From Caryophanales bacterium (GTDB lineage: Bacteria; Bacillota; Bacilli; Bacillales; Bacillaceae_J): a stretch of 64,000 nucleotides of DNA. Each line of letters starts with the position of its first letter. Positions within the stretch are counted from its first letter, which is position 1. The notes beneath the pieces were generated by a model, which saw only the letters and a list, made by a program, of their open reading frames with translations, searched no databases and had not been told where the DNA came from. Location: contig DULJ01000048.1 of assembly GCA_012840465.1 (NCBI GenBank), positions 1 to 64,000 on the forward strand, in the 5' to 3' direction. Shown one piece after another: positions 33,725-35,562 of the stretch. A program made the position numbers and the translations under genes.

Positions 33725-34189
33725 TTATTTAATTCTTTTTAATTCCCTCAATTCCGTTTCTTGCTCAAGCGAGCGCATCGCTAAAGATTCAAGAATTTTA
33801 TCCTGCCGTTCTTGTCCTTCTTTAAGCGATGAAAGTTCACCACGCATCAAATGCATGTCCATCGTAAGGTTTTCTAATTTTGCGTCTGTTTCATCTTGAC
33901 GATGATGAAGGGCTTTTAATAATTGGGTATTCTCATCTAGTTGAGATTTGATACTTTGATTATCTTCTTGTAGAGCTTTAACATCGACTTTTAGACCTGT
34001 AACGTCTTCTTTCAGACTTGTGACATCAACTTTTAGACCTGTAACATCTTCTTTCAGACTTGTGACATCGACTTTTAGACCTGTAATGTCTTCTTTCAGA
34101 CTTGCGACATCAACTTTCAGACCTGTAATATCTTCTTTCATTCCTCTTATTTCAGTCATTAATTCCTTAAACATTTGTTCCGTAGTCAT
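33725..34189 (-). CDS. Repeat coiled-coil protein
   Basis: 154 residues predicted to be one long coiled coil. From about residue 15 to 75 it is built of 14-residue units of the form SLKEDVTGLKVDVT, four to five copies in tandem, each two heptads. The second half is a non-repetitive coil (QLDENTQLLKALHHRQDETDAKLENL, LKEGQERQDKILESL). No membrane segment or enzyme motif. Such proteins occur in Bacillus but without a known function; the perfect heptad phase suggests a rod or oligomeriser. It has a good ribosome site before ATG 34189. Confidence 0.75.
   Translation of the reverse strand: MTTEQMFKELMTEIRGMKEDITGLKVDVASLKEDITGLKVDVTSLKEDVTGLKVDVTSLKEDVTGLKVDVKALQEDNQSIKSQLDENTQLLKALHHRQDETDAKLENLTMDMHLMRGELSSLKEGQERQDKILESLAMRSLEQETELRELKRIK
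33976..34145. repeat. 42-base tandem repeats inside the coiled-coil gene
   Basis: Successive 42-base units (TCTTTCAGACTTGTGACATC ... ACTTTTAGACCTGTAA type) encode the 14-residue units. They are nearly identical in DNA, so copy number can change by slippage or recombination. Confidence 0.75.
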
Positions 34190-34565: not shown

Positions 34566-34842
34566 AACCGTGGACCTATCATTGATATGGCAATATAAGT
34601 GTTACTTATGCAGCAAGCTCATTCAGAGCAACCCTTCGGCACACAGAAATTAACCACTTATGGCTGCTTCGTTCCCGACCTGACCAATTTCATGAGTTTC
34701 CGTTGCGAGGACTCCAAAGGTCAACACCGCTTGCAAAAGGCAAACCTTACATTGTCATACCGCAGAATAGGAATTCAGCCTCGCTAAAGCGGATTGCAAG
34801 TTACAGGGCACCGCTGACTCCCCGCCTACCACGGTATGTACT
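34566..34842 (-). ncRNA. ffs: Signal recognition particle RNA (long Bacillus type, scRNA)
   Basis: The minus strand contains GGTCAGGTCGGGAACGAAGC, the SRP RNA domain IV core: the GGAA tetraloop is closed by compensatory C-G/G-C pairs instead of the usual CC/GG, and the symmetric-loop AGCAGCC side follows. The 5' half has GGCGGGGAGTCAGCGGTGCC and CTGTAACTTGCAATCCGC, as in the B. subtilis scRNA Alu domain. The ends pair (ACCGTGG with CCACGGT), giving about 277 bases. A -10 TATAAT lies at 34855-34850 and a terminator follows. It scaffolds Ffh for co-translational membrane targeting. Usually it lies near dnaX; here it does not. Confidence 0.85.
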
Positions 34843-34908
34843 TAGAATCATTATAAAATTATGTCGTTAGAAAAAGTTGAGTCCCACCTATGCCGTATCC
34901 CAAATTGT

Positions 34909-35250
34909 TTTAAAAACCCGCTCTCGCAGGTGGGTTTCCGCAGTCTGACCTGTCTGCGATCCTGAAAAACAGGCATGGCATCAGTCAATTCATATAGGAA
35001 TCCTGAAAAAATAGTACGGTTTAAAACAAGAATGGGTTACGTACAATGCAGGAATCAAATTCGCCTTGGCGTATTTGCGCCCAGATTTTATCGAGCCCGC
35101 TCGATAATTACCTTTAAAAATCTGTGGCATCCGCCGGAGGCTTTAACTTTATTCAGCAGGGGTTTGTACCCCCACTGAATTTAAAATACTAATTTGCATT
35201 CATCTCACCGCTTATGGAAGGGGGAGACTTCTGCTGAATGAAGTTAAAAG
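34909..35250 (-). other. Hairpin-rich structured intergenic element, possible small RNA
   Basis: No coding potential was found. It contains at least five stems: TTATCGAG/CTCGATAA (35088-35107) inside AGATTT/AAATCT; GGGGT/ACCCC with CAG/CTG flanks (about 35152-35181); an 18-base long-range stem (35142-35159 with 35231-35248, one G-T wobble) that excludes the previous hairpin; CGCAG/CTGCG (34939-34958); and AAACCC/GGGTTT with a T run when read leftward (34914-34937), resembling a terminator. It sits directly upstream of the SRP RNA promoter. I suspect a repeated Bacillaceae element or a regulatory RNA but cannot name it. Confidence 0.45.
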
Positions 35251-35355
35251 ATATTTCCGGCGATAATGTGTGTCATTCGTATCGCGTAAATAAAATATAA
35301 CATGAAAATATGTAGCTTTGAACCTGTAAATACTTGTAAGTTTGGTACTTTTGAC

Positions 35356-35513
35356 CTAAAAATTCATCTTTGATTGACCACCATCAACATTAAGGCTTGC
35401 TCCAACAATCCAAGATGCTTTCTCAGAAGCAAGAAAAACCACGACATTAGCAACTTCTTCAACTGTACCAAAACGACCTGCGGGTATTTCATTCTCCACA
35501 AACGCCTTTATTT
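35356..35513 (-). pseudogene. 3' remnant of an SDR family oxidoreductase
   Basis: The minus strand encodes the final 52 residues of a short-chain dehydrogenase: [21 protein letters not shown] then [18 protein letters not shown] and stop (TAG 35358-35356). This is the classical SDR C-terminal signature (PxGRxGxxEEVA, GxxxNVDGG). Upstream the frame meets a stop codon within a few residues, and the Rossmann fold and YxxxK site are missing. It has no start or ribosome site. Confidence 0.82.
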
Positions 35514-35562
35514 TCTAATTTCAATAATATAGATATTGAACTTTTGGTCAGGTGAGCTGTGT

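Follow-up and report, generated by a model that had tools for sequence, protein, structure and literature searches.

What is the hairpin-rich sequence that lies beside the SRP RNA gene, between positions 34909 and 35250, in a 64,000-nucleotide stretch of Bacillaceae DNA (the window)? An earlier sequence-only reading had treated it as a single element with two mutually exclusive stems and a terminator, resembling a riboswitch or a regulated small RNA. Here the stretch is found to be made of two unrelated features, the start of an ordinary 6S RNA gene and one copy of a repeat with edges at 35054 and 35243. Our analysis shows that the repeat is dispersed and present in high copy number, that it has precise ends and stems with compensatory changes and that its orientation is coupled to replication. 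It is probably a non-autonomous, non-coding Bacillaceae element which moves, like IS200/IS605, as single-stranded DNA, with a Y1 HUH transposase provided in trans. Papers are cited by PMC number, from the portions of their text that were available.

6S RNA, SRP RNA and the repeat

The features are listed below in window coordinates; LE and RE are the left and right ends of the repeat, and no strand is assigned where none is given.

34568..34834, minus strand: SRP RNA (scr), large bacterial type (RF01854, 187.3 bits); a neighbour, outside the repeat
34877..35053, minus strand: 6S RNA (SsrS) gene (RF00013, 69.1 bits, gathering score 46.4; relatives L265, L266 and L267)
35054..35243, minus strand in the putative LE-to-RE transposition sense: mobile repeat of ~190 bp (edges, empty sites, copy number)
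35054, minus strand: RE of the repeat, ..AATTTGAT (edges over 213/174 copies)
35056..35077: RE-proximal 9-bp hairpin CAAATNCGC-CTTG-GCGNATTTG (head alignment)
35082..35124: helix CAGATTTT / AAAATCTG around the inner domain (head alignment)
35088..35107: short-form inner hairpin TTATCGAGC/GCTCGATAA (sequence; the RF01690 domain is here in long copies)
35126..35141: conserved block GGCATCCGCCGGAGGC (head alignment)
35142..35159: internal arm TTTAACTTTATTCAGCAG of the terminal stem (sequence, covariation)
35204..35226, minus strand: LE-proximal hairpin CTCCC..GTGAG (fold prediction)
35231..35248: outer arm CTGCTGAATGAAGTTAAA, whose last 5 bases are the target-side TTAAA (sequence, covariation)
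35243, minus strand: LE of the repeat, CTTCATTCAGCAG.. (edges over 213/174 copies)
35244..35247: TTAA, LE-side target tetranucleotide (7 other copies have TTAA in their empty comparison sites and an eighth has CTAA)
35260..35514: upstream block, 86% identical in S. azotoformans

The Rfam 6S match spans 34877-35057 on the minus strand, and the part common to relatives begins at TCCTGC (35053). RF00013 is also found in the three relatives (56.7-74.6 bits) and the 6S-SRP pair is kept in all three. The AAACCC/GGGTTT stem with its T run, previously read as a terminator, and a CGCAG/CTGCG hairpin are both inside the 6S alignment, which continues to 34877. No named RNA family had been recognized in the stretch; about half of it is 6S RNA, and RF01690 is carried by long-form sister copies of the repeat. 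In relatives L265 and L267 tmRNA is located upstream of 6S RNA on the same strand, with tRNA-Leu between them in L267; it was not found in the S. azotoformans locus carrying 6S RNA. A 154-aa ORF at 33725-34189 of the window, minus strand, contains tandem repeats (ITGLKVDVTSLKED).

Between the 6S alignment and the block at 35260-35514 there are 8 bases in S. azotoformans and 206, repeat included, in the window. Insertion of the repeat appears to have parted the window 6S gene from the sequence that adjoins 6S RNA in S. azotoformans. A promoter-like pair is present on the minus strand (35276-35248) at the junction between repeat and upstream sequence, such matches being at chance level (4 against 2.5 expected), and a minus-strand transcript might run through the repeat into 6S RNA. 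Terminator-like matches number 3 against 0.9 expected; two such sites are inside the repeat on the plus strand, as expected of palindromes with nearby T runs.

Copy number and distribution

In its own genome, a 3.94-Mb draft, the repeat has at least 40 long blastn places as well as 9 short pieces (40 of 197 candidates scored). This genome is taken to be of the Schinkia group, being in one genus with records whose loci mark them as Schinkia azotoformans and an Alkalihalobacillus macyae MAG. A motif for the RE-proximal part (the head) has 99 matches, with 0 for a reversed-pattern control, and a motif for the terminal part has 143, where both arms of one copy can match. Several head matches lie no more than about 160 bases from a contig start (e.g. 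C69:130, C70:4 and C82:130). The draft seems to break at copies, so that the copy number may be underestimated. Among the matches listed, the repeat also occurs at dozens of loci in Siminovitchia terrae and is present in Fredinandcohnia, Bacillus norwichensis, Lederbergia, Peribacillus and others. With stricter filters, a covariance model of the head matches in 13 of 299 genomes of the order, from 6 of 116 genera. Plasmids and phages gave no repeat match at E 1e-5, and three viral contigs have one.

Frames over the 190-bp repeat do not exceed 67 aa; there is no transposase-sized frame, and they are too short for a transposase. Seven of 35 copies examined in the own genome overlap a predicted frame of at least 130 codons. 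B. subtilis has a repeated 190-bp element, on which the literature searched yielded no paper. No earlier description of the present repeat was found in the literature searched, subscription journals lying outside the search. A minimal copy of ~52 bases occurs in L427 (minus frame near 2498), in which the LE arm is joined almost directly to the RE hairpin; in the available text of PMC3119063, terminal-only elements of Haloquadratum are 52 bp, a similar size.

Ends, target and empty sites

Comparison of 213 left ends with one another, and of 174 right ends, shows sharp edges. The bases of ATCAAAT, which is outside the motif used for finding copies, are each conserved at 97-99%. TTAA is conserved at 97-99% and the right end GTTAA at 95-99%, partly by construction since GTTAA lies within the motif that found the copies; the next A is at 86% and conservation then falls near background. 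None of 174 copies has a target duplication of 5 bases or more, four share 4 flank bases (1.3 expected) and shorter matches are near expectation. The sequence-only reading had named many genomic copies and target duplications as marks of a mobile element: copies are indeed many, as the 99 head matches attest, and duplications are absent (0/174), as is expected for a single-stranded-DNA type of transposition.

Comparison of 79 copies with 1.37 Mb of S. azotoformans provided seven empty sites. The junction carries TTAA for L010, L021, L039 and L056 (one extra T) and CTAA for L025, while L023 and L024 are too diverged at the junction. A wider comparison of 258 copies with all sequences collected yielded 11 with an empty site, several of them already counted; L156 is newly TTAA. 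L023 has TTAA at the empty junction of L185, from another genus. L178 is nested in a host repeat, of which the paralogue L183 reads TTAAA at the site and three further paralogues (L184, L190 and L164) read differently. This gives TTAA in seven copies and CTAA in one. TTAA is absent or unclear at six loci: the window copy, L143, L162/L426 (one locus), L195, L210/L166 and L024. The window copy is absent in S. azotoformans (L266), where GCAGGA is followed across the junction by TAATTTTT, with TAAT at the junction. That of L143, whose left end is degenerate, reads TTAG, and the comparison of L210 with L166 gives TTTGAA.

Where the site is exactly readable, insertion took place 5′ of a pre-existing TTAA, with neither duplication nor loss. 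The seven TTAA and one CTAA empty sites point to TTAA as most likely part of the target and to ATCAAAT...GAAG as the mobile part.

The 18-bp arms could suggest a classical MITE, limited to the 107-bp part 35142-35248 and moved by a DDE transposase acting on these arms as terminal inverted repeats. The arms do exist, but one is terminal and the other internal, and the two outer termini carry no inverted repeats (ATCAAAT.. and ..AAGTTAAA). The mobile unit includes the head: both the edges and the empty sites place its other boundary at ATCAAAT. Together with the lack of target duplications and the replication-coupled orientation described below, this makes a MITE extremely improbable.

Covariation of the stems

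The two stems first noted in the sequence are both present: the arms 35142-35159 and 35231-35248 of the 18-nt stem are 94% complementary, and those of the local hairpin using the same bases (35151-35163 and 35168-35180) are 85% complementary. The separate TTATCGAGC/GCTCGATAA hairpin was also found at 35088-35107. None of 200 shuffles folds as well as 35138-35250 folded as DNA (z -6.15) or as the repeat folded as RNA, plus strand (z -6.67).

The head alignment includes 51 sequences, 50 of the 56 representatives at 95% and the window copy. In all, 94.9% of its cells are paired, compared to 24-45% in slid versions, and 7 pairs have changes on both sides; a single pair accounts for 19 of the 27 double-changed cells. 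None of 500 shuffles was as high on four of five measures, and 65 were on further pair types. In the hairpin 35056-35077, 93.7% of cells are paired with changes on both sides in 3 of 9 pairs, and in the helix 35082-35124, 98.8%, with AU replaced by GC in 3 rows and GC by AU in one. Long-form heads (20 sequences) are 96.8% paired and also have 7 pairs changed on both sides, most double changes being in three rows of one genome (G013); of 500 shuffles, 4 reached this level on pairs, 1 did so on pair types and none on the other three measures.

The terminal stem was examined in long tails, found by the outer-arm motif (50 representatives of 199), where 94.4% of cells are paired and 7 of 16 pairs are changed on both sides. 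In the short variant, 9 of 15 pairs are so changed both in 16 copies chosen by eye (96.6% paired) and in all 27 (92.9%). No shuffle of 500 equalled the long tails, or the full set of 27, on any measure. The competing local hairpin is 80.0% paired, against 79.9% in shuffles, with no excess of covariation. The long-range 18-bp stem is therefore real, and a two-stem switch is unsupported since the long stem covaries and the competing hairpin does not. A riboswitch or attenuator was rejected as an explanation, as the local hairpin is not above shuffles and the proposed terminator is inside the 6S match.

Wobble pairs are asymmetric in the heads, with 45 GU and 27 AC cells in the main alignment (27 of the 45 GU from one pair) and 30 GU and 6 AC cells in the long forms (20 of the 30 from one pair). 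Because two sites drive these counts, they are indecisive both for the strand and for RNA versus single-stranded DNA.

Interchangeable inner domains and the Bacillaceae-1 family

The repeat has two interchangeable inner domains, one of which is shown to be the Rfam family Bacillaceae-1 (RF01690). This family was described in 2010 (PMC2864571) and is of unknown function according to the available text of PMC4333381. Its Rfam class is sRNA and its model has 67 positions. The 162 distinct heads comprise 142 short and 20 long ones. In all four long-form loci searched (L039, L112, L119 and L214) the insert is RF01690, with 72.3-78.1 bits, on the strand opposite to the head-to-tail frame. This link to long-form copies of a mobile repeat (four of four loci) is new: in the portions available of the RF01690 literature (PMC2864571, PMC4333381, PMC8208703 and PMC5764928), we found no connection with a mobile element. 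The window copy has a TCGAGC hairpin at the corresponding place, and no RF01690 match at the gathering score (35 bits) or at E up to 1. An inner AGGA-loop hairpin has 49 matches in the own genome, one of which looks unrelated, against 99 heads; with copies compared in bulk, this suggests that about half are of the long form.

RF01690 is distributed more broadly than the repeat (147 of 299 genomes of the order). In 29 of 30 loci (L277-L306) inspected by eye, it was seen in several unrelated repeat scaffolds, sometimes in tandem. The RF01690 hairpins of G134 show no clear replichore bias among the matches listed. Eight Bacillaceae-1 structures are given for B. subtilis (PMC8208703) and ten for Brevibacillus reuszeri (PMC5764928) in the portions available.

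In the text available of PMC4333381, CsrA binding is proposed for the reverse complement of Bacillaceae-1, and the discoverers of the family are said not to have been confident of the strand. CsrA-type AGGA loops are present in long copies, while some long copies have ACGAG or ACGAT loops instead. Given that proposal, the link between AGGA loops and CsrA is not a new idea.

The compensatory changes could instead stem from an RNA function, and a structured cis-regulatory RNA or sRNA, riboswitch-like and repeated by chance, would agree with these stems, with the filing of Bacillaceae-1 as an sRNA and with the CsrA proposal (PMC4333381, available portion). Such an RNA would nevertheless have about a hundred copies with the edges and empty sites of a mobile element, its alternative stem is unsupported, its window copy has no Bacillaceae-1 match and its supposed terminator is 6S RNA sequence. 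We consider it very unlikely. Of the structural claims first made, covariation bears out the long stem (0/500 shuffles) and leaves the local hairpin at shuffle level, and the regulated RNA with exclusive stems and a terminator is not supported.

Orientation and replication

In the own genome, 19 of the 35 copies examined are antiparallel to both flanking genes in the head-to-tail frame and one is parallel. Orientation was analysed further in Bacillus sp. FJAT-29790 (G064), with 130 matches, 67 of them among the matches listed on its 3.17-Mb scaffold. Of these listed matches, 31 of 33 before 1.16 Mb are on the minus strand and 30 of 34 after 1.70 Mb on the plus strand, with none between 1.16 and 1.70 Mb (Fisher p 2e-12). 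The sampled GC skew of the scaffold switches sign between 1.13 and 1.28 Mb; the coding strand mostly tracks the skew, with exceptions near the switch.

Sixty regions read around FJAT-29790 copies include 70 copies. With the TTAA side taken as the left end, 64 of the 70 point along the replication fork and six are exceptions. Copies with convergent or divergent neighbours follow the fork in 13 of 18 cases, as do both copies whose two neighbouring genes run against it, giving 15 of 20 together; four more, with an unassigned side, all follow it. Most genes themselves run in the direction of replication, so that transcription as the cause of the orientation is excluded only in part. The local GC skew of 16 genome groups, FJAT-29790 loci included and loci with an absolute skew below 0.03 or fewer than 2900 bases dropped, agrees with replication for 113 of 120 copies (seven exceptions). 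In the window, the skew of -0.089 agrees with the orientation of the copy.

According to a review, IS200/IS605 members are oriented in keeping with the direction in which their host DNA is replicated (PMC5371812, available portion). A target on the left-end side and this orientation are two separate expectations of the IS200/IS605 mechanism, and both were found for the repeat.

Search for a mobilising transposase

Y1 transposases were searched for in 14 distinct genomes, 30 of the 44 matches having a locus, and TnpB in the own genome only. No autonomous element with the ends of the repeat was found in loci L091-L097 of the own genome, nor in 28 further Y1 loci, where only ordinary copies are present nearby (L252, L257 and L264). 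Fredinandcohnia quinoae (G063) has the head motif and no Y1_Tnp match. The resemblance between LE and sequence upstream of an IS605-type tnpA (L237) is not significant: 15 regions were tested and 8 of 200 shuffles reach it. Twenty regions of the own genome have an LE-type arm with no listed head; the sequence adjoining the arm looked truncated, diverged or complete, and no own-genome Y1 or TnpB match lies within these regions. As the loci examined yielded no transposase whose ends match, we do not claim membership of the IS200/IS605 family. The proposal of a decayed transposon end or repeated intergenic element holds as to a repeated, mobile sequence; the element is intact, not decayed.

The repeat might be a REP-type element moved by RAYT (TnpA_REP), the domesticated Y1 branch, instead of an IS200/IS605 TnpA. 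RAYT-like ORFs are present in own and related genomes (L096, L248, L249, L257 and L264), and in L257 and L264 such an ORF has copies of the window type ~0.8 kb away, a proximity which is not evidence by itself. A Bacillaceae-1 copy in L292 (1501-1567) is directly upstream of a RAYT-like ORF, but L292 was chosen for holding RF01690, and repeat copies are absent from the RAYT loci L096, L248 and L249. The flanks of RAYT carry other short repeats: in L096, GGGGACAGGCACC repeats are located upstream of the RAYT-like ORF, of 204 aa. The gene adjoining this ORF is one which we take to be comM-like. Finally, the head rows do not conserve the canonical GT[AG]G foot (PMC6006769, portion available): 7 of 51 have CTACC, which reads GGTAG on the opposite strand. 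Mobilisation by RAYT seems unlikely.

A possible mode of transposition

For single-stranded-DNA transposition by an IS200/IS605-type enzyme, the preferred reading, a Y1 transposase would recognise the ends as folded in the template of the lagging strand, joining LE 3′ of TTAA, and the hairpins would be retained because folded ends are needed for transposition.

The target may in addition be chosen by pairing between the internal arm (TTTAA..) and the target-side TTAA, in such a way that a changed arm leads to a changed target, Bacillaceae-1 being a swappable cargo or recognition domain; this extension is tentative and we would not expect it to hold. In diverged copies, the outermost pairs of the stem change together (e.g. 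TAGAAC/GTTCTA, TATAAT/ATTATA, TTTTAC/GTAAAA and GTAAAT/ATTTAC), including bases which the empty sites of other copies assign to the target. No empty site of a variant-arm copy was found among the copies compared, and the outer-pair changes may postdate insertion.

Relationship to known systems

The data replace a presumed riboswitch by a mobile element with a clear replication-coupled footprint in Bacillaceae and provide the Bacillaceae-1 RNA with a genomic setting. If Bacillaceae-1 indeed travels in single-stranded-DNA transposons, its annotation as an sRNA by pipelines needs a caveat, the CsrA binding proposed for it can be tested as a property of a mobile element, and its conservation would be at least partly that of folded single-stranded DNA. 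The terminal stem provides a testable model for target choice guided by pairing.

The Rfam model RF01690 covers only the inner domain of long copies, the repeat being larger than its 67 positions. In size, the repeat is similar to bcr1 of the B. cereus group, another mobile repeat, from Bacillus (147-167 bp; PMC2267715, available portion). In the text available of PMC3733652, bcr1 is listed among MITEs with terminal inverted repeats, a description which sets it apart.

Like IS200/IS605 members such as IS608 and ISDra2, the repeat inserts 3′ of a tetranucleotide without duplication, is oriented with replication and has subterminal hairpins; unlike them, it carries neither tnpA nor tnpB. The hairpin and tetranucleotide scheme of the family is set out in PMC6006769, and the long terminal stem of the repeat, which includes target bases, differs from the guide geometry in the portion available.

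The PATEs (palindrome-associated transposable elements) of Haloquadratum, as described in the available text of PMC3119063, are also non-coding, present in many copies and sharp-ended, with no target duplication. Both they and the repeat have near-terminal palindromes and no inverted repeats at the outer ends; in the repeat, these palindromes are 35056-35077 and the terminal stem with the hairpin 35204-35226. In contrast to PATEs, the repeat is found in Bacillaceae and not haloarchaea, has compensatory internal structure and an interchangeable Bacillaceae-1 domain, and no parent IS605 was found for it. A demonstrated parent excepted, the element fits the published description of PATEs and, by analogy, would work like IS200/IS605.
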